A DNA stretch of 45,917 nt from Rhodospirillales bacterium. GTDB taxonomy: Bacteria; Pseudomonadota; Alphaproteobacteria; BOG-932; Roseiterribacteraceae. Below, piece by piece: positions 8,279 to 18,285 of the stretch. A model generated the notes under the pieces. The model ran no database searches and had not been told where the DNA came from. It saw only the letters and a list, made by a program, of their open reading frames with translations. The stretch is from positions 1 through 45,917 of the forward strand of contig JAQGIE010000178.1 of NCBI GenBank assembly GCA_028291365.1, read 5' to 3'. Numbering within the stretch: the stretch's first letter is position 1; the number at the start of each line of letters is the position of its first letter. Both the position numbers and the translations under genes were made by a program.

Positions 8279-9220
8279 ATGACGTCCCTCACCCTCCCCA
8301 TCGCCGCCGACCTCGAAGCCGCGCGCGACGCATGGCGGCGCTGGATGGCGAGTGAGCGGCGCCTGTCGGAACACACGACCGAGTCCTACACCGGCGACGT
8401 CGACCGGTTTCTGCGCTTTCTCAGCGCGCATCACGGGCGGAACATCGCGCTGGCCGATCTCGGCAACGCCACGCTGGCCGAGTTTCGCGCCTGGAGTTCG
8501 GCGCTGGCGCGCGACGGTGCGGCCGCCACCAGCCGCGCCCGCGCGCTGTCGTCGGTCAAAGGCCTGTTCCGCTTTCTCGACAAGAACGGGACGCTGCACA
8601 ACGCAGCGTTGGGCACGCTGCGCGCACCGAAACTGCCCAAGTCGATTCCGAAGCCGCTGACCCAGCTCGACGCCGAAGCCTTGCTCGCCAATGCCGACGA
8701 TCACCCGACCGAAGACTGGCTGGGCAAGCGCGACGCCGCCTTGTTCACGCTGCTCTATGGCTGCGGCCTGCGCATCGACGAGGCGCTGTCGCTCGCACGT
8801 CGCGTGGTGCCGCTGGGCGAGGCGCTGACCGTGCTCGGCAAAGGCCGCAAGGAGCGGCGCGTGCCGGTGCTGCCGGCGGTGGCGGCGGCGCTCGCCGCCT
8901 ATGTCGATGCGCTGCCCTACAGCGGCGCGCCCGATTCACCGCTGTTCGTCGGCGCCAAAGGCAAACGGCTCGATGCCGGCGTGGCGCAGCGCCGCCTGCG
9001 CGAGCTGCGGCGGCAATTGAACCTGCCCGACAGCGCGACGCCGCACGCGCTGCGCCATTCCTTCGCGACGCACCTGCTCGCGGCCGGCGGCGATCTGCGC
9101 GCCATCCAGGAATTGCTCGGCCACGCCTCGCTGTCGACGACGCAGCGCTATACCGCGGTCGAGACCGAGCAGCTGCTCGCGGTCTATCAAGCGGCGCATC
9201 CGCGCGCGAAAGCCTCATGA
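8279..9220 (+). CDS. xerC: Tyrosine recombinase XerC
   Basis: A 313-residue site-specific recombinase that with a XerD partner resolves chromosome dimers at dif. The N-terminal SAM-like DNA-binding domain covers about residues 15-105. The catalytic domain has all six expected positions: R165 in [13 protein letters not shown]188 in [15 protein letters not shown]256 and R259 in [13 protein letters not shown]282 in [13 protein letters not shown], and nucleophile Y291. A housekeeping role, not a phage integrase, is supported by length, by the DUF484 neighbour and by the lack of any mobile-element genes nearby. ATG 8279 has GTAGGA about nine bases upstream. The stop overlaps the start of the MaoC gene by four bases (ATGA). 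Confidence 0.95.
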
Positions 9221-9948: not shown

Positions 9949-11493
9949 CTATCGCAGCCGGTACAGCTTCCACGGCCCCGACTCGCGCAGCAGCACGAGG
10001 CCCGGCGGCAGCGGCGCGAGATATTCATCCAGATAGGTCAGCAGCACGTCGAACCGCTGCAGCAGCGCCGGCGCCATCGGATCCAGGTTTCTCGGTCCCA
10101 GCGCGTCGTGGTCGAGCGGGAAGCGGTGCATGATGCTGCGCGATCCGATATGGCCGCCGAGATCGGCATAGTCCGGCGTGAAGTTGAGCGGCTGCTGGCC
10201 CGGGAACGAGAACACGCCGGGATAGAAACCGTCGGCGTCGAGCACGGCATAGGACGGCATGTGCAACAGCGCCGGCACCTCGATTTTCCGCGGCGCCGCC
10301 AGTGCGGCGGTGACGCGGATGCCTTTCGGCAGCGTGCGCAGCTCGGCGCGGATCGGTGCGAAATCGGCGTCGATGCCGCGCCATTGCGCCGCCACGCTTT
10401 CGGCGCGCACGGCGACGAAGAGGAAGACGATCGCGGTCAGCGCGCGCCGCGGCGCGCGGCCGGTCCAGTCGATCGACGCCACCGCAACGAAGCCGAGCAC
10501 GATCGGCATACGGTGATAGGCGAACCAGCTCGACGACACCATCATCGGCATGAAGGCGAAGCAGAGCGAGAACAGGGCCAGCACCGGCAGCAGGCGAAGA
10601 TCGAAGCGGATCCAGTCGGCGATGAAACCCAGCAGCACGAGCGAGGCGACCAGCAACAAGGCCGCATTGGTCATGGGGTCGTTGAAGTTGACCATGAACA
10701 ACACGCTCTGCAGCTTGACGATGTAGTGCCAGGGCCGCAGCAGATCGCCCCAGCTCGTCTCGGACGCGACGCTCGAGGTCGGCGTCGCGAACAGGAACAG
10801 CGCCAGGCACAGCAGCGCCCCGGGCAGCACGGTCATCCCTTCGCGCACCACGCCGGTGAAATTCAGCTCGCGCACCCACATGCGCCCGAACGACCAGCCC
10901 GCCACGGCGATCAGGAACAGGCAGAAGCCGAACAGATGCGCCACGAACAGCACCAGGCACAGCGCCGCGTAGAGCGCAGCGCGCGCGGCGACGGGCCAGT
11001 CCTGCGTGCGCACGAAGATGCCGAGGCTCCACAGGAACAGGCCCAGCGCGAACAGGAAGTTCAGAAAGCCGAACCAGAGAATGCCGTTATAGAGCAGCAC
11101 CACCGCGAGCAGCGGCCACGTCGAGACCCGGCGATGGACCGCGGCGTGCAGGAACATCGCGCCGGTCGCCAGCAGCACCATCGTAGCGGCGACGAACAAG
11201 CGTCCGGCGAGTTCGACCGAGCCCAGCAGCCGCGCCAGCGGCGGCACGATCAGGTCCATCGCGAGGTTGGGCATCAGCGCCCAGTGAACCTCGTAATAGC
11301 GGTTCAGCGTCTCGTTGTGGCCGTCCTGCAGCAGCACGTACATACGCGCGAGATGGCTGGGATAGTCGTGCAGCGGCAGCGATTCGACGCTGAAGATCGG
11401 CACCGTCGCGACCATGGTCGCAACCAGCAGCAGCGCGATGCGGATCGTATCGCGCCGAACCAAGGGCAGCGAAGCTGCCTGCTGGACCGTCAT
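9949..11493 (-). CDS. Polytopic membrane protein, GT-C-like glycosyltransferase
   Basis: A 514-residue integral membrane protein with about ten hydrophobic helices in the first 390 residues and a soluble C-terminal part of about 130 residues. The first periplasmic loop contains SVESLPLHDYPSHLARMYVL; an acidic residue in this loop is the catalytic hallmark of GT-C transferases, which take sugar from polyprenyl phosphate. No specific Pfam family is recognised with certainty. It overlaps the upstream family 2 glycosyltransferase gene by four bases (ATGA at 11490-11493). That supports a two-step model in which the GT2 makes the lipid-linked sugar and this protein transfers it outside. The acceptor is unknown. 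An alternative is a flippase-like or structural membrane protein. Confidence 0.7.
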   Translation of the reverse strand: MTVQQAASLPLVRRDTIRIALLLVATMVATVPIFSVESLPLHDYPSHLARMYVLLQDGHNETLNRYYEVHWALMPNLAMDLIVPPLARLLGSVELAGRLFVAATMVLLATGAMFLHAAVHRRVSTWPLLAVVLLYNGILWFGFLNFLFALGLFLWSLGIFVRTQDWPVAARAALYAALCLVLFVAHLFGFCLFLIAVAGWSFGRMWVRELNFTGVVREGMTVLPGALLCLALFLFATPTSSVASETSWGDLLRPWHYIVKLQSVLFMVNFNDPMTNAALLLVASLVLLGFIADWIRFDLRLLPVLALFSLCFAFMPMMVSSSWFAYHRMPIVLGFVAVASIDWTGRAPRRALTAIVFLFVAVRAESVAAQWRGIDADFAPIRAELRTLPKGIRVTAALAAPRKIEVPALLHMPSYAVLDADGFYPGVFSFPGQQPLNFTPDYADLGGHIGSRSIMHRFPLDHDALGPRNLDPMAPALLQRFDVLLTYLDEYLAPLPPGLVLLRESGPWKLYRLR

Positions 11494-12491
11494 TCCGCAG
11501 CCAGCCGGATCGCCGTTTCGCGCACCGTCTCGCTACGCGGCCGGTCGAGTCCGATCCGTTCGCGCACCAGATAGATCGGGCGGCTCTTCACCTCGACGAA
11601 GATGCGCGCCACATACTCGCCGACGATGCCGAGACCGATCATGTTGAGCGCGCTCGACACCAGCAGCAGCACGATGATCGAGGCATAGCCCGGCACGTCG
11701 ACGCCGAAGGCGATGGTCTTCACCACCACGACCAGCGTGTAGAGCGCCGCCACCAGCGCCAGGCCGAAGCCGAGATAGCTCCAGATGCGCAGCGGCAGGC
11801 TGGAGAAAGACACGATGCCTTCGAGCGCGAAGTTCCACAGCCGCCAGAAGCGCAGCTTGGACGAGCCCGCCGAACGCGGCGCGCGCGCGTAGGTCACGGT
11901 CGTGGTCTTGTAGCCGACCCAGGCGAACATGCCTTTCATGAAGCGCGCCCGTTCGGGCAGAAGCTGCATCGCATCGACGACGCGGCGATCCATCAAACGG
12001 AAGTCGCCGGCATTGGCGGGAATGTCGACGTCGCTGATGTGGTCGATGAAGCGATAGAACCACTCCGCGGTCTTGCGCTTGAGCCAGGTGTCGCTGCTGC
12101 GATCGGCGCGGATCGCGAGCACCACTTCGTTGCCCTCGCGCCAGCGCGCCACCAATTCCGGGATCACTTCGGGCGGATCCTGCAGATCGGCGTCGATCGG
12201 GATCACCGCGCGTCCCACCGCATGGTCGATCGCGGCGGTCAGCGCGGCCTCCTTGCCGAAATTTCGCGACAGGTCGATCACGCGCACGATTCCGGGATGG
12301 CGCACCGTCGCCGCCGCCAGCATCGCCAGCGTATTGTCGCGCGAGCCGTCATTGACGCACACGATCTCGTAGCGAAGCCGCAGCGAGTCCATCACCGGCA
12401 CGATCCGCTCGAAGAAGAGTTTTACTGCCTCCTCCTCGTTGTAGAACGGCACGACGAGGCTGAGTTCGATCGATCCGCCGTGCATCCTCAT
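11490..12491 (-). CDS. Family 2 glycosyltransferase, GtrB/ArnC-like polyprenyl-phosphate sugar synthase
   Basis: A 333-residue GT2 enzyme. The N-terminal nucleotide-sugar domain starts IELSLVVPFYNEEEAVKLFF, with CVNDGSRDNT and the metal-binding DxD-type motif at D100/D102 in VIPIDADLQDPPE. Two C-terminal transmembrane helices (about 235-262 and 270-295) precede a GEYVARIFVEVKSRP tail, the usual GtrB/ArnC/DPM layout. It would load a hexose or aminosugar onto polyprenyl phosphate on the cytoplasmic face. ATG 12491 is chosen because AGAGG lies just upstream; another ATG is two codons inside. The frame extends to 12560 without a better start. It is coupled to the membrane protein gene downstream. 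Confidence 0.92.
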   Translation of the reverse strand: MRMHGGSIELSLVVPFYNEEEAVKLFFERIVPVMDSLRLRYEIVCVNDGSRDNTLAMLAAATVRHPGIVRVIDLSRNFGKEAALTAAIDHAVGRAVIPIDADLQDPPEVIPELVARWREGNEVVLAIRADRSSDTWLKRKTAEWFYRFIDHISDVDIPANAGDFRLMDRRVVDAMQLLPERARFMKGMFAWVGYKTTTVTYARAPRSAGSSKLRFWRLWNFALEGIVSFSSLPLRIWSYLGFGLALVAALYTLVVVVKTIAFGVDVPGYASIIVLLLVSSALNMIGLGIVGEYVARIFVEVKSRPIYLVRERIGLDRPRSETVRETAIRLAAE

Positions 12492-12704
12492 CGGCACCTC
12501 TGATCCAGGCGATTGCGAAGGTGCAAACGCTTCCGGCGAAGATCGGCACAGCGCCGCCACAGCGGCGTGCCGTCGCGGCCCGGATTTGACCGAAGATCTG
12601 CGTAGTTCAGCATGGGCCTCATCGACATCGGAGAATGCGTAGACATCGGGTTCGCTTCGGCAATGCTCGTGCCACGAGTTCCGCGTCGCGAAGGCGCGAT
12701 CGAC

Positions 12705-13352
12705 CTAGGACGCGCTCGACGCGGCCGGATTGCGCGTCGTCACCGAAGCGCCGGCGGACGACAGCTCCAGTCGGGCCGCGAAATGTAAACCGCGATCGAA
12801 CAACATCGACGCGGGCCACGGATACAGATTCAGCCGGTCGCGCCACGCCACCGTTTTGAGCGCCAGCGTTTCGAACGCGGCCCGCCAACGCTGAAGCGGC
12901 CAATAGTTGTAAGGAAGCACGACACCGTGCGGCGCGTTGCCGACCCAATCCATGAACCGCAGCGTGGGACCCGCCAACAGGCCGTCGCGCAGATGATCCT
13001 TGAGCACCACCGAATGGCGCGAAACGCGCGCCGCTTCGCGCAGCAACCGGCTGGGATCGTCGGTATGGTGCAGCACGTCGACGAACATGACCGTGTCGAA
13101 AGAGCGATCCTCGAACGGCAGCGTCGAACCGTTAAATAGCTCGACAGGAATGTGCGTGTGCGGCCGGCGCAGCACGTCGACGCCGACGATCTCCAGGTCG
13201 GGCCGCTGCTGCAGGATCAGCGCGTCGATCGAGCCGTCGCCGCAGCCGACATCGAGCACGCTTGCGTTTCGCGGCAGCAATTCAGCGAGCTGGCCGGCGA
13301 GAATTCGGATCCTGCGTCCGAACACCAGCGACCCGTGAAGCTCTCGCAGCAT
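12705..13352 (-). CDS. Class I SAM-dependent methyltransferase
   Basis: A 215-residue methyltransferase. Motif I is SVLDVGCGDGSIDA (about residues 31-44), the acidic end of strand 2 is IVGVDVL, and SFDTVMFVDVLHHTDDP corresponds to motif IV and the following loop. The start is ATG 13352, with GGAGG five bases upstream. In-frame starts further up (13442 and beyond) would run into the divergent glycosyltransferase and lack this signal. It would methylate a small molecule or glycan precursor; the position between two glycosyltransferase units suggests a lipid-linked sugar, but this is inference. It is divergent from the gene at 13441 with 88 bp between them. The 213 bp upstream of the GtrB-like gene show no further feature. 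Confidence 0.85.
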   Translation of the reverse strand: MLRELHGSLVFGRRIRILAGQLAELLPRNASVLDVGCGDGSIDALILQQRPDLEIVGVDVLRRPHTHIPVELFNGSTLPFEDRSFDTVMFVDVLHHTDDPSRLLREAARVSRHSVVLKDHLRDGLLAGPTLRFMDWVGNAPHGVVLPYNYWPLQRWRAAFETLALKTVAWRDRLNLYPWPASMLFDRGLHFAARLELSSAGASVTTRNPAASSAS

Positions 13353-13440
13353 CCATTCCTCCGTTTGCGCGTGCGCGAAGTGTGGAACAAACGAGGATCG
13401 CGAAAGTTCTCGGTCCTGGCGCGCTAAGAGGGATGCGACC

Positions 13441-14643
13441 ATGGGCTTTGAACTCACCGTGCTGATGCCTTGCCTGAACGAGGCCCGCACGCTGGCTACA
13501 TGTATCGGCAAGGCCAGGGCTTTTATCGAGCGCACCGGCATCGCAGCCGAAATCATCATCGCGGATAACGGCAGTACCGACGGGTCGCAGGCGATCGCCA
13601 TTCGACATGGCGCGCGCGTGATTCATGTACCGCGACGCGGCTATGGCAGTGCGCTGATGGCCGGCATCGAGACGGCGCGCGGTCGCTACGTGATCATGGG
13701 CGATGCAGATGACAGCTACGATTTCGGGCAGCTTGATGCATTCGTCGCCAAGCTGCGCGAGGGTTATCAGCTGGTGATGGGCAATCGCTTCCGCGGCGGC
13801 ATTCGTCCGGGCGCCATGCCGCCGCTGCATCGCTATCTCGGCAATCCGGTGCTGACCGGCATCGGGCGTCTCTTCTATGGCAGCGCCTGCGGTGACTTTC
13901 ATTGCGGCCTGCGCGGCTTCGATCGCGACGCGATCCGCACCCTTTCCCTCACCGCGCCCGGCATGGAATTCGCGAGCGAGATGGTGGTGAAAGCGACCAT
14001 CCATCAACTGCGCATCACCGAAGTCCCGACCACGCTCGATCCGGACGGTCGCGACCGCGCCCCGCATCTGCGCAGCTGGCACGATGGCTGGCGCCATTTG
14101 CGCTTCATGCTGCTGTTGGCGCCGCGCTGGCTGTTCCTCCATCCCGGCCTGTTGCTCGTGATGGCGGGCACGGCGCTGACCGCGTGGCTGATCCCCGGCC
14201 CGCGGCGCGTCGGCAATCTCGAACTCGGCGTGCACACGCTGCTCTATGCCTGCACCATGATCGTGCTCGGCGCGCAGGCGGTCTCGTTCTGGGTGTTCGC
14301 CAAACTGGCGACGGCGCGCGAAGGGTTGCTGCGGCACGACGCGCAGCTCGAACGGTTTCTGTCGCGCATCTCGCTCGAGACCGGGCTCAAGATCAGCGCC
14401 GCGCTGATCCTGCTCGGCATCGCCGGAATCGCCTACACGATGCGGATCTGGGGCTCGAGCGCTTTCGGTGCGCTGACGCCGGCCCATGTGATGCGCTTCG
14501 CCATCCCGGCTTCGACCGCGATCGTGCTCGGCTTTCAGCTCTTCGCGTCGTTCTTCATGATCGCGGTGCTGGGGCTGCGGGCCAAACCGGCGCCGGCGAC
14601 ACCGGCCGAGCGCGAAGCGGCGCACCTCGAACCGGCGCTGTAA
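13441..14643 (+). CDS. Family 2 glycosyltransferase, dolichol-phosphate mannosyltransferase-like
   Basis: A 400-residue GT2 protein distinct from the GtrB-like enzyme. It opens with FELTVLMPCLNEARTLATCI, has IIADNGSTDGSQ, and the metal site MGDADDSYDF at about residue 85-92. After the catalytic domain come four predicted transmembrane helices between about 220 and 385. Such enzymes place a sugar on polyprenyl phosphate and may assist its translocation. ATG 13441 has AGAGGG about nine bases upstream. It converges on the GT-C-like gene at 14647-16419 with only three bases between the two stops, so the pair is adjacent but not co-transcribed. Confidence 0.9.
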   Translation: MGFELTVLMPCLNEARTLATCIGKARAFIERTGIAAEIIIADNGSTDGSQAIAIRHGARVIHVPRRGYGSALMAGIETARGRYVIMGDADDSYDFGQLDAFVAKLREGYQLVMGNRFRGGIRPGAMPPLHRYLGNPVLTGIGRLFYGSACGDFHCGLRGFDRDAIRTLSLTAPGMEFASEMVVKATIHQLRITEVPTTLDPDGRDRAPHLRSWHDGWRHLRFMLLLAPRWLFLHPGLLLVMAGTALTAWLIPGPRRVGNLELGVHTLLYACTMIVLGAQAVSFWVFAKLATAREGLLRHDAQLERFLSRISLETGLKISAALILLGIAGIAYTMRIWGSSAFGALTPAHVMRFAIPASTAIVLGFQLFASFFMIAVLGLRAKPAPATPAEREAAHLEPAL

Positions 14644-14646
14644 CGC

Positions 14647-16419
14647 TCAGCGCGGTCGTTGCACCGCCGGCTGACCGCCGGACTCGGCGCCGCAGCGTTC
14701 GACGCAACGCAGCGTGCCGCCGTCCCAGCGGAGGATCTTGCGCGTCGGGTACAACGCCGCCAGCCGCGACGCCGAGTCGGCACCGCGTTCCAGCGCGTAC
14801 AGCACCGGCGCGCCGGGATCGATCCGGGTGCCGTTGCGCGTCAGGTCCCATTCATACATCGGCCGCAAATGTCCGGTCGGCGCGGCGACCAGCACGACCG
14901 CGTTGGTGATCTTCTGCTCGTCCACCAGATCGTAGATCGCCATCCGCTCGTCGACGACGCGGCGCAGATAGATCGACGCGAAGGGCAAGGTCGCGAGCGC
15001 GAAGGTGACATGCAGCGCGACGCAGGCGAGCAGCACCGCGCGCAGCCGCGACGACGCGCCGGGCCAGAGCGCGGCGCCGCCGCGCGCGATGGCGAGCACC
15101 GCGAACGGAAACGGATCGAAATAATAGCGCGGCCCGTACCGGTTGCCGCCGACATCGGGATAGAACAGGAAGGCGATCACGAACAGCAGCGGCAGCAGGT
15201 CGAAGGCGCGCAGCATGCGCCGCCGCAGCAGCACGCCGAGCGCAGCGGCGTAGGCGAGCGGCACGACCGGCGAGGTCCATTCGGCCAGTTCGAAAATCTG
15301 CTTGAGCAGCGCGCGGATCGCGTCAATCGGCGTGCTGTGAAAGCCGAACTCGGTGGTGGCCCACAGGCCGAAGGTGAGTTTCGGCCAGGCCCAGCCGCTG
15401 ACCGTGGTGAAGGCCGAGCCGGTGATCTCGCGGTTGTAGAGCAGCAGCGGTGCCACGAAGCACAGGCCCGCGAGCACGCCGGCCAGCCCGAACGCGACGT
15501 GACGCAGCCGCAGGCGCGGCAGCAGCGCGATCGCGACCGACAAAGCGGCGAGCAGGGTCGAGAAATAGCGCGTCACCGCCAGCCCGCCGAGCGCGGCGCC
15601 GGTGGCGGCGGCGTTGCCGAGTTGCGGCCGCGCGATGAAGCGGTCCGCCCCGATCCACAGCGCCAGCAACGTCGCGGCGGCGAAGACGTGGTTGAAATAC
15701 GAGGCCGCGTTGAACAGGAAGAACGGCGTGATCGCGACGCAGGCGACGATGGGCGCGGCCAGCCGCGGATCGGCGACGCGGCGCGCGAACACATAGAGCA
15801 GCGCCAGCATCGCGGCGCCGCAGGCCGGGCCGGCAAGCCACGCCGGCAGGCCGAGGCTGGTCCAGGCGAGCACCGCCGCCGGCCAGCCGGGCGGAAAATG
15901 TCCGACCCATTTTCCGTCGCGGTTGATGATGTGCATGTACTGGAACAGATCGTCGAGCGGCGGCGGGGCCTGCCACAGAAGCCCCTGCCGGAAGGTCTCG
16001 ACCTGGAACAGCATCTGATATTCGTCGGCCGAGTTGGGGAAGCGGCGCAGCACGACGCCCGCGATCAGCACCGAGACCGGCAGCGAAAGCGCGATCGCCC
16101 ATCGCGCCAGCGACTGCCAGCGCGACAGCGCGCTCGGCACCGGGCGGGCGCGCGCGACGGTCCAGACGCAGACCAGCGACGCGATCGCGACGACGAAAAG
16201 ACGAACCAGGCTGGGCCAGCGCAACGCTTCGCCCGCGCCGACCCGCAGCGCCAGCGGGAACAGGTTCGGCGTCAGCGCCGCGTGCAGCAGGTTCAGCGCC
16301 GCGAACACGGCGAGCAGCAGAAACGTCAGTCGCCACAGGCTGGCGATGGCGGGCGGCGCGTCGGCCTCGGCCGCCACGTCCGGCGCTGCGACAACTCGTC
16401 GGAATGGAGACAAGAACAC
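14647..16419 (-). CDS. Polytopic GT-C-like membrane glycosyltransferase (ArnT/PMT-like)
   Basis: A 590-residue membrane protein with about eleven hydrophobic segments and a soluble C-terminal region after about residue 480. The first large loop has RRFPNSADEYQMLFQVETF; the DE pair fits the catalytic acid of GT-C enzymes that use polyprenyl-phosphate sugars. Further on there is a loop HIINRDGKWVGHFPPGWPA of the kind that holds acceptor contacts in this superfamily. It probably transfers a sugar in the periplasm to lipid or cell-surface glycan. It is not clearly homologous to the 514-residue membrane protein of the same locus, so the locus has two separate transferases. ATG 16419 is the first Met; no strong Shine-Dalgarno is seen. 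Confidence 0.75.
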   Translation of the reverse strand: MFLSPFRRVVAAPDVAAEADAPPAIASLWRLTFLLLAVFAALNLLHAALTPNLFPLALRVGAGEALRWPSLVRLFVVAIASLVCVWTVARARPVPSALSRWQSLARWAIALSLPVSVLIAGVVLRRFPNSADEYQMLFQVETFRQGLLWQAPPPLDDLFQYMHIINRDGKWVGHFPPGWPAAVLAWTSLGLPAWLAGPACGAAMLALLYVFARRVADPRLAAPIVACVAITPFFLFNAASYFNHVFAAATLLALWIGADRFIARPQLGNAAATGAALGGLAVTRYFSTLLAALSVAIALLPRLRLRHVAFGLAGVLAGLCFVAPLLLYNREITGSAFTTVSGWAWPKLTFGLWATTEFGFHSTPIDAIRALLKQIFELAEWTSPVVPLAYAAALGVLLRRRMLRAFDLLPLLFVIAFLFYPDVGGNRYGPRYYFDPFPFAVLAIARGGAALWPGASSRLRAVLLACVALHVTFALATLPFASIYLRRVVDERMAIYDLVDEQKITNAVVLVAAPTGHLRPMYEWDLTRNGTRIDPGAPVLYALERGADSASRLAALYPTRKILRWDGGTLRCVERCGAESGGQPAVQRPR

Positions 16420-16500
16420 GCCCCGTTTGCACGACCGACCCGTTGCGGCCCTGCGCCAGAACGCCGGCGGCCGGACTGGGTTTCATTCGGCGCTGCGCGC

Positions 16501-16569
16501 TTACCGAACGGCCAGGGCCAGCTTGAGGCCGAGCGCGACGAAGGCGCCGGCGAAAGCGCGGCGCACACC
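16501..16569 (-). pseudogene. Possible 3' remnant of a LysE-family exporter gene
   Basis: On the minus strand, between TAG (16570-16572) and TAA (16501-16503), the frame reads GVRRAFAGAFVALGLKLALA followed by VR. This resembles the last helix of LysE/RhtB-type amino-acid exporters. Nothing upstream continues it; instead a family B palindrome begins within three bases. It looks like the tail of a gene lost by deletion up to the palindrome. The match is short, so the identity is tentative. Confidence 0.4.
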
Positions 16570-16574
16570 CTACT

Positions 16575-16600
16575 AATTGTCACCCCGGCGAAGGCCGGGG
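16575..16600. repeat. Palindrome family B copy 2
   Basis: Identical over 26 bases to 2605-2630. Stem CCCCGGC (16583-16589) with GCCGGGG (16594-16600) around GAAG; the outer arm present at 2607-2636 is lost here. Confidence 0.7.
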
Positions 16601-16630
16601 CCCATTGCGACGACGACGGCACACAAAAGA

Positions 16631-16658
16631 AAAGCGCGCTGCATCGACAGCGCGCTTT
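16631..16658 (-). terminator. Intrinsic terminator of lpd
   Basis: Perfect 11-bp stem AAAGCGCGCTG (16631-16641) with CAGCGCGCTTT (16648-16658), six-base loop. On the minus strand it is followed by TTTTCTTTTG, about 85 bp past the lpd stop. Confidence 0.8.
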
Positions 16659-16704
16659 CCATCAAACATACGTCCAAGAACAACTGTGGGCCCCGGCCGG
16701 AGTT

Positions 16705-16735
16705 TATTCCCGCGAAAGCGGGGGCGGGCATGACG
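16705..16735. repeat. Composite element family C, right half only
   Basis: Hairpin CCCGC-GAAA-GCGGG (16709-16722) followed by GGGCATGACGACGAA, matching the right half of the element at 8165-8262. It directly abuts the 3' end of lpd. Confidence 0.5.
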
Positions 16736-16743
16736 ACGAACGA

Positions 16744-18141
16744 TCAAATGTGAATCGGCCGACCATCCACGGCCAGCGCCGCTTCCTTGACCGCTTCTTC
16801 CAGCGTCGGATGCGGGTGACAGGTGCGGGCGATGTCTTCGGCCGAGCCGCCGAACTCCATCGCCAGCACGATCTCTTGAATCAGCGTGCCCGCTTCGGCG
16901 CCGATGATGTGCGCGCCGAGCACGCGGTCGGTGGTGGCGTCGGCGAGGATCTTCACGAAACCGTCGGTCGCGTTGATCGCGCGCGCGCGGCCGTTGGCGG
17001 TGAAGGGAAACTTGCCGGTCTTGTAGGCGATGCCCGCCTGCTTCAGCTGCTCTTCGCTTTTGCCGACGCTGGCCACTTCGGGGAAAGTGTAGACCACGCC
17101 CGGAATCGCGTCGTAGTCGATATGCGGCTTCTGGCCCGCGATGATTTCGGCCACCGCCATGCCTTCGTCTTCGGCCTTGTGCGCCAGCATCGGGCCCGCG
17201 ATCACGTCGCCGATCGCATAGATGTTCGCGGCACTGGTGCGAAACTGGTGATCGGTCTTGATGCGCTTCTTGTCGTCGAGCTGCACGCCCGCCGCTTCGA
17301 GACCGAGATTGTCGGCATAGGGACGACGGCCGACCGCAACCAGCACGATGTCGGCTTCGATGGTTTCCGCACTGCCGCCCGCGGCCGGCTCGACCGTCAG
17401 CGTCACGCCGTTCTTCGACGATTTGGCGCTGGTGACTTTGGTCGAGAGTTTGAACTGCATCCCCTGCTTGTTGAGGATGCGCTGCATCTGCTTCGACACT
17501 TCGCCGTCCATGCCGGGCAGGACGCGGTCGAGGAACTCGACCACCGTCACTTCGGCGCCGAGACGATGCCACACGGTGCCGAGTTCGAGACCGATATAGC
17601 CGCCGCCGATCACCACCAGCTTCTTCGGCACCGAGGTCAGTTCGAGACCGCCGGTCGACGACACGATTTTCTTCTCGTCGATCTCGATCCCGGGCAGCGA
17701 CACGACTTCGCTGCCGGTGGCGATGATGATGTGCTTGGCGGTGATGTCGCCGACGCCCTCGACGGTCAGCGTCGTCGCGTTCTTGAATCTGGCGGCGCCT
17801 TTGAGCCAGTCGATCTTGTTCTTCTTGAACAGATAGGCGACGCCGTCGACGTTGGCCTTCACCACCTTGGTGCGATGGCCCTGCATGGTCGGCAGGTCGA
17901 GCTCGACGCCGGCGACCTTGACGCCGAAGGCGCCGAGATGGTCGCGCGCCGCTTCGAACCGTTCCGACGCCGCGAGCAGCGCCTTGGACGGAATGCAGCC
18001 GACATTGAGGCAGGTGCCGCCGAGCGTTTCGCGCTTCTCGACGCAGGCGGTCTTGAAGCCGAGCTGGGCGGCCCGGATGGCGGCGACATAGCCGCCGGGC
18101 CCGGCACCGATCACCACCACGTCGTAGGACGTATCCGCCAT
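16744..18141 (-). CDS. lpd: Dihydrolipoyl dehydrogenase (E3)
   Basis: A 465-residue flavoprotein that reoxidises dihydrolipoamide of 2-oxoacid dehydrogenases with NAD. The FAD motif is VVVIGAGPGGYVAAIRAAQLG at about residues 8-28, the redox disulfide C44/C49 is in GGTCLNVGCIPSKALL, and the NAD motif VVIGGGYIGLELG is near 180. The second FAD motif is IYAIGDV, and the catalytic pair H444/E449 is in HPHPTLEEA. ATG 18141 is preceded by GGAG; ATG 18153 is an alternative, and the long frame upstream is antisense to the isoaspartyl peptidase. It belongs functionally with sucA and sucB but is separated from them by an opposite-strand gene, so it needs its own promoter in 18142-18285. Confidence 0.97.
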   Translation of the reverse strand: MADTSYDVVVIGAGPGGYVAAIRAAQLGFKTACVEKRETLGGTCLNVGCIPSKALLAASERFEAARDHLGAFGVKVAGVELDLPTMQGHRTKVVKANVDGVAYLFKKNKIDWLKGAARFKNATTLTVEGVGDITAKHIIIATGSEVVSLPGIEIDEKKIVSSTGGLELTSVPKKLVVIGGGYIGLELGTVWHRLGAEVTVVEFLDRVLPGMDGEVSKQMQRILNKQGMQFKLSTKVTSAKSSKNGVTLTVEPAAGGSAETIEADIVLVAVGRRPYADNLGLEAAGVQLDDKKRIKTDHQFRTSAANIYAIGDVIAGPMLAHKAEDEGMAVAEIIAGQKPHIDYDAIPGVVYTFPEVASVGKSEEQLKQAGIAYKTGKFPFTANGRARAINATDGFVKILADATTDRVLGAHIIGAEAGTLIQEIVLAMEFGGSAEDIARTCHPHPTLEEAVKEAALAVDGRPIHI

Positions 18142-18285
18142 CACACGCTCCATCAGATCGAGACTTCTTGTCCGGTCTGGCGGAGATAGCCTTGCCCACC
18201 CCACCGCGGCAAGGCGCGGTCCCGGATTGGCGGCGCATTGCACCCGTGCGATGCAGGCAAGGTCGCAAAAACGGAACCTGCCGCC

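Follow-up and report, generated by a model that had tools for sequence, protein, structure and literature searches.

The window analyzed here, a 45,917-nucleotide stretch of contig JAQGIE010000178.1 from a Rhodospirillales bacterium (assembly GCA_028291365.1), carries five adjacent genes, A to E, at positions 9949-16419. Taken as a whole, the best explanation, which we regard as likely, is that A and B form a Gtr-type periplasmic glycosylation pair, that D and E were acquired separately, and that C perhaps has a methylating role. In Gtr O-antigen glucosylation, as described in PMC3688519 and PMC11127046, GtrB makes an undecaprenyl-phosphate sugar, the flippase is proposed to be GtrA, and a glycosyltransferase of the C-type fold (GT-C) performs the transfer. 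Read in this way, the pair is of a known kind, here without a local flippase; what is new is a sizeable unnamed GT-C family represented by A. The host is a soil bacterium, and the A-B pair is chromosomal.

Bacterial GT-C enzymes decide surface sugar decoration, and their sequence divergence makes sequence libraries miss them. Gene A matched no Pfam family (two models, at E 0.03 and 0.09 among 14 relatives, look like chance), nothing meaningful in NCBIfam (one model at E 0.91) or PHROGs, and no PDB sequence significantly (glutamate decarboxylase chains at E 0.44-0.47). An AlphaFold2 model, calculated with 77 relatives from named records in the alignment, had a predicted local distance difference test score (pLDDT) of 89.6 and a predicted template modeling score of 0.92. 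In a Foldseek search of the PDB with this model, the sole match at E ≤ 0.001 was ArnT (5f15, E 6.5e-5), and ranks 1-16 were occupied by chains of ArnT, oligosaccharyltransferase (OST) and the OST complex, arabinosyltransferase (AftA/D) and protein mannosyltransferase, three OST-complex chains being identified from the entry title only. The same model had no match at E ≤ 0.001 among viral structures. VIA-align gave Z values of 17.7 for human OST-A, 16.9 for Pmt4 and 16.6 for ArnT, and also matched STT3. Among the 50 matches listed, 48 were GT-C enzymes, OST-complex chains or the U chain of glycosylphosphatidylinositol transamidase, which we take to be related to GT-C; the 49th was the C-terminal domain of an AglB and the 50th was unrelated (Z 4.3). 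The initial annotation had proposed comparison with ArnT and protein mannosyltransferase folds, and that comparison returned a GT-C fold, which we confidently predict for A.

Conservation was assessed in 27 A proteins that were not chosen by motif, drawn from 35 places in whole-genome similarity searches (the window's included) after eight fragmentary or weak places were dropped. D43, H186 and R328 were present in 27/27 and H47 in 26/27, as were G142 and P316 in all 27. D43 directly follows the first helices of the model and fits the loop acid that the initial annotation expected of GT-C transferases, and the proposed catalytic Asp of several GT-C enzymes is described at a matching place (PMC11127046). 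We infer that D43 is the likely catalytic base. A larger alignment of 78 rows also shows invariant D43, Y44, H47, A49 and R50, though the search pattern required these residues, which accounts for part of the invariance. The alignment took in 77 of 80 named loci; a script found no in-frame open reading frame (ORF) in L139, and L128 and L138 were removed by hand. In these last two (L128:5956-7476 and L138:6040-7490), the ORF of A is divided between two frames, perhaps through a frameshift or sequencing error.

Gene B aligned with Synechocystis GtrB (sll0501) over 311 columns, 164 of them identical (385 bits), and scored 374 bits with the phage GtrB family phrog_841, in keeping with its initial description as polyprenyl-phosphate-sugar synthase-like. 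Scores with the equivalogs of ArnC (NF007986, 177.6 bits, cut-off 529) and PgfS (NF047588, 261.1 bits, cut-off 500) stayed below their thresholds. On these sequence matches, B is GtrB-like and a probable polyprenyl-phosphate-sugar synthase. The PgfS score raises the alternative that the acceptor of A-B is not a polysaccharide or lipid but a surface protein, as with PgfS-PgfM1 in Streptococcus mutans. There, pgfS is followed by a co-translated gene for a PMT-2-type membrane protein, according to PMC5856776, and STT3 and Pmt4 are among the highest structural Z values of A. We nevertheless find a protein acceptor unlikely: 261 bits is far below the PgfS cut-off and B is closer to GtrB, the top Foldseek match of A is ArnT, a lipid A enzyme, and a common fold does not reveal the acceptor.

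The assignment of A and B to a Gtr-type pair draws further support from the neighbors of A in other genomes. Relatives of A occurred in 24 of 385 genomes of the class, the window's own included, by whole-genome similarity search; in these searches, run for A, C, D and E, scoring was limited to the few best candidates in each genome. A pattern search of the genome_contigs collection gave 380 matches, of which 372 encode A relatives. The best 80 of the 372, not a random sample and some on short contigs, are the named loci and include Alphaproteobacteria, Nitrospira, Noviherbaspirillum, Thauera, Desulfobacterium and Acidobacteria records. Some places apparently entered through both collections (L062/L115, L063/L117, L031/L143, L032/L167 and L030/L169), and the two sets were never summed. 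Eleven plasmid records matched the A pattern, and both of those with an annotated gene beneath the match read 'hypothetical protein'. No description of the family turned up in the literature, where the motif itself cannot be searched for.

The 80 named loci were scanned with profiles for glycosyltransferase family 2 (GT2) and GtrA that had been built from sequences of the window and related ones. A GT2 was detected in 15, within 1 kb of A in 11, and GtrA in 11, all of which also had GT2. Because the GtrA profile had been seeded with L147 and others, its matches were rechecked against Pfam, and all 11 genes (those of L147, L096 and nine other loci) exceeded the Pfam cut-off. A rough estimate, using the densities of the window genome only (12 GT2 and 2 GtrA per 4.37 Mb), predicts about 2.6 GT2 and 0.4 GtrA in 944 kb, against 15 and 11 loci seen. 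L147 has the order GT2-GtrA-A, and GT2+GtrA fusion genes lie beside A in L061, L101, L115 and L135. This company is the gene set of Gtr systems. Since B is GtrB-like and GtrA accompanies GT2 at 11 of 80 A loci, A is probably the third component of a Gtr-type system.

Several further features were seen around A relatives. Thirteen of the 80 named loci (for example L169:7494-9422; the others are L096, L100, L103, L109, L114, L122, L130, L136, L143, L153, L167 and L173) encode, downstream of A and in its orientation, a second large membrane protein of about 640 aa, whose gene overlaps A by 4 bases in L143, L153, L167 and L169. Both copies tested, from L030 and L031, were without a Pfam match; the protein is a possible second GT-C partner of A. 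In Noviherbaspirillum pedocola, the 10 kb of L106:3112-13038 encode a PMT_2 protein and GtrA along with two GT2 enzymes and three relatives of A. Both sibling genomes have a distant paralogue of A (L079:7855-9489 and L080:7658-9556) whose loop motif is DGPIHADIVRI and which lies near a lepA-like gene.

A number of observations weigh against a Gtr-type assignment. A and ArnT share only about 12% identity, and Foldseek TM-scores of about 0.5 show a distant relation. GtrA was found neither in the window's contig nor among the five proteins, so that A-B is without the same-locus GtrA of the Gtr three-component system. The initial claim that a GtrA-type flippase is missing therefore stands for the contig and fails for the genome, which has two copies elsewhere, on contigs C241 and C264. 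In the family's other genus, the B relatives found lie on contigs other than those of the A relatives. The fusion genes of L101 and L135, both from Nitrospira, stand tail-to-tail with A and share no operon with it. In 65 of the 80 named loci, some of them on short contigs, the profiles detected no GT2, so that a synthase gene next to A is the exception among its relatives. Finally, the structure model of the second membrane protein, E, built from two sequences, reached a pLDDT of 35, was unusable and was kept out of the fold search.

The prevalence of solitary A genes would also suit a GT-C-fold protein that no longer transfers sugar and acts as a scaffold or transporter, and some GT-C-like proteins are considered non-catalytic. 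Such a role is highly unlikely in our view, given that the loop Asp, two His and an Arg are almost invariant across distant relatives and that GtrA and GT2 accompany family members at loci from Nitrospira, Noviherbaspirillum and Rhodospirillales. GtrA and GtrB are reported to be interchangeable between Shigella serotypes (PMC3259042), which by analogy makes their supply in trans plausible for A relatives. On balance we lean slightly toward a broader proposal: A would found an unrecognized GT-C family of Alphaproteobacteria, Burkholderiales, Nitrospira and further phyla that fills the GtrC slot and also works in trans with shared GtrA/GtrB, and that in the Roseiterribacter lineage has become a two-gene system without its own flippase. 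Through the confident model, the 78-protein alignment and the conserved site, a family of several hundred 'hypothetical proteins' becomes an enzyme family open to testing, and its GtrA/GtrB neighbors name the likely donor.

Comparison with a sibling genome, Rhodospirillales bacterium TMPK1, published as Roseiterribacter gracilis (PMC11164329), bears on whether the five genes are one system or two. The family and order searches drew on one and the same set of five genomes. In TMPK1, A-B occupies the corresponding place, with identities to the window of 73% for A and 82-84% for B; between lpd and B lie an AraC-type regulator and a LysE-type exporter, where the window has C, D and E. Either C-D-E came in or they were replaced, and A-B stands without them in both cases. 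The initial annotation had raised the possibility that two synthase/membrane-protein pairs serve parallel routes to one acceptor. A and B do overlap, by ATGA, on the minus strand, where the order is C, then B, then A. D (+) is head-to-head with C (-) and converges on E (-), tail-to-tail with 3 bases between; because of this arrangement D and E are neighbors, not a co-transcribed pair.

A single five-gene system, in which A and E would use donor lipids from B and D on the same acceptor and C would methylate the product, can appeal to the adjacency of all five genes within 6.5 kb. It can also cite L154, where an A relative, a GT87 GT-C, an E-profile match and a GT2 lie on a single strand, and L106 and L137, each with two GT2 genes and several GT-C-type genes. 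We nonetheless judge it quite unlikely: A-B is kept in TMPK1 without C, D and E, D and E are convergent, and ten other D loci examined had no A or E relative at E ≤ 1e-6. Moreover, C, D and E are patchily distributed, C matching at E ≤ 1e-12 in 4 and D at E ≤ 1e-40 in 11 of the 385 class genomes (own genome included in both counts), with E relatives in 6. At the same thresholds, D and C were not found in the family's other four genomes (best 4 and 7 candidates per genome scored). Because TMPK1 has A-B without C-D-E and D and E are convergent, we take the region to comprise a Gtr-type pair and another gene set that was acquired separately, rather than two routes to one acceptor.

The methyltransferase placed between the two pairs by the initial annotation is indeed there: gene C matched Methyltransf_23/11 and no specific family, and a homologous 217-aa ORF in L201 fits its shorter start at 13352. 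In one other genome, L068, three consecutive genes encode a relative of B (59%), a methyltransferase with 31.7% identity to C over 101 residues, and a relative of A; this is the one sign that C belongs with A-B. Gene D scored 96 bits with PF00535 and 124.5 bits over most of the AglJ model TIGR04182, whose cut-off is 325. Two of its ten other loci, L195 and L197, have GtrA beside D, L199 has a GT87 GT-C upstream of the D relative, and L194 pairs a methyltransferase with one. At L195:6570-11699, the D relative and GtrA are accompanied by two large membrane proteins without a Pfam match, and this locus and L199:6786-9542, where the D relative adjoins the GT87 GT-C, are further Gtr-like sets. D too keeps Gtr-like company, but not with E.

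Gene E scored 20.6 bits with PMT_2 (PF13231), under the gathering cut-off of 26.1. By hhalign, its profile matched two PMT_2-positive proteins at 95.6% and the gene A profile weakly, at 61.9%; PDB sequences gave no match up to E 10, and viral contigs held no E relative. An E paralogue adjoins a GT2 gene elsewhere in the window genome (L029:4407-7071, on contig C166, where GtrA is not present), and in TMPK1 an E relative and a GT2 have GtrA between them (L028:5487-8481; Pfam 59.1 bits). Given the sub-threshold PMT_2 matches, the 95.6% profile match and the SADE motif, E is a probable GT-C with a moderately supported fold. Of the two membrane proteins first described as GT-C-like, A is confidently predicted to have the fold and E is probably a GT-C.

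The features of the locus are collected below. All five ORFs are open at the positions first given, with GC content at the three codon positions (GC1/2/3) of coding type; because each has homologues in other genomes, they are not chance ORFs, and the five genes are real.

Table 1. Genes of the five-gene locus and key residues of A, in window coordinates (SAM, S-adenosylmethionine).
Feature	Position	Strand	Description	Basis
Gene A	9949..11493	-	514-aa integral membrane GT-C glycosyltransferase; family without Pfam model	Foldseek/VIA-align matches
Gene A residues			Probable catalytic Asp43 in loop after first helix; invariant His186, Arg328	Residue counts
Gene B	11490..12560	-	GtrB-like GT2, probable polyprenyl-phosphate-hexose synthase; DAD motif; translation probably begins at an ATG near 12491	
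Gene C	12705..13352	-	Class I SAM-dependent methyltransferase, about 215 aa; ORF open to 13601	
Gene D	13441..14643	+	GT2 with four predicted C-terminal membrane segments, AglJ/DPMS-like; distribution patchy	
Gene E	14647..16419	-	590-aa membrane protein, probable GT-C (PMT_2-like); SADE loop motif, GGNRYGPRYY	

To the left lie genes for a XerC-like recombinase and a MaoC-type dehydratase, and to the right those for dihydrolipoamide dehydrogenase (lpd) and asparaginase, followed by sucB and sucA as read from ORFs. The recombinase, at 8279-9220, was the only phage-type domain tested beside genes A-E; it reads as housekeeping, and a phage origin of the locus was rejected. A promoter scan of the locus found 0 sites versus 0.6 expected, and terminator-like sites (7 versus 4.3 expected) were mostly uninformative. 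One of them, at 16629-16660 (-), is a 14-pair stem followed by a T-rich tail; it lies between lpd and E, in their orientation, and would separate E from lpd. A 1176-codon open frame at 14659-18189 (+) runs antisense to E and lpd; its GC1 is highest, and its codon pattern fits a chance antisense frame in high-GC DNA.

Under the favored Gtr-type explanation, B would load a hexose onto polyprenyl phosphate on the cytoplasmic side, as its closeness to GtrB suggests, and a GtrA-type flippase encoded elsewhere in the genome would move the lipid-linked hexose across the membrane. An extracytoplasmic acceptor would then receive the hexose through A, in which Asp43 is the likely base, and C might conceivably add a methyl group to the sugar or glycan. 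The separately acquired D and E would be a second donor-synthase gene and a GT-C gene, which may or may not work with each other or with A-B.

Several known systems offer points of comparison. Gene D resembles AglJ of haloarchaea in being a GT2 that matches most of the AglJ model, but it is below the cut-off, bacterial, and has a longer C-terminal membrane part. Pgf protein glycosylation in S. mutans likewise has a synthase gene co-translated with a membrane-protein gene and a second membrane protein nearby, as described in PMC5856776; it differs in the low PgfS score of B, in the lack of an epimerase among the five genes here and in the Gram-negative host. ArnC-ArnT, which transfers aminoarabinose to lipid A, also combines a GT2 synthase with a GT-C, and ArnT is the best Foldseek match of A, whereas B lies far from the ArnC cut-off and A shares little identity with ArnT. 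The GT136 three-component pentofuranose systems described in PMC11127046 have a new-family GT-C whose proposed Asp follows the first helix and in which His and Arg are conserved, a likeness to A by description; their donor synthase is of another kind and their flippase is a MATE protein. Compared with Gtr systems, the window has no GtrA, A belongs to no Pfam, NCBIfam or PHROGs family, and the flanks are housekeeping rather than phage genes; the likeness lies in a GtrB-like B, a GT-C beside it, and A relatives that adjoin GtrA and GT2, including GT2-GtrA fusions.

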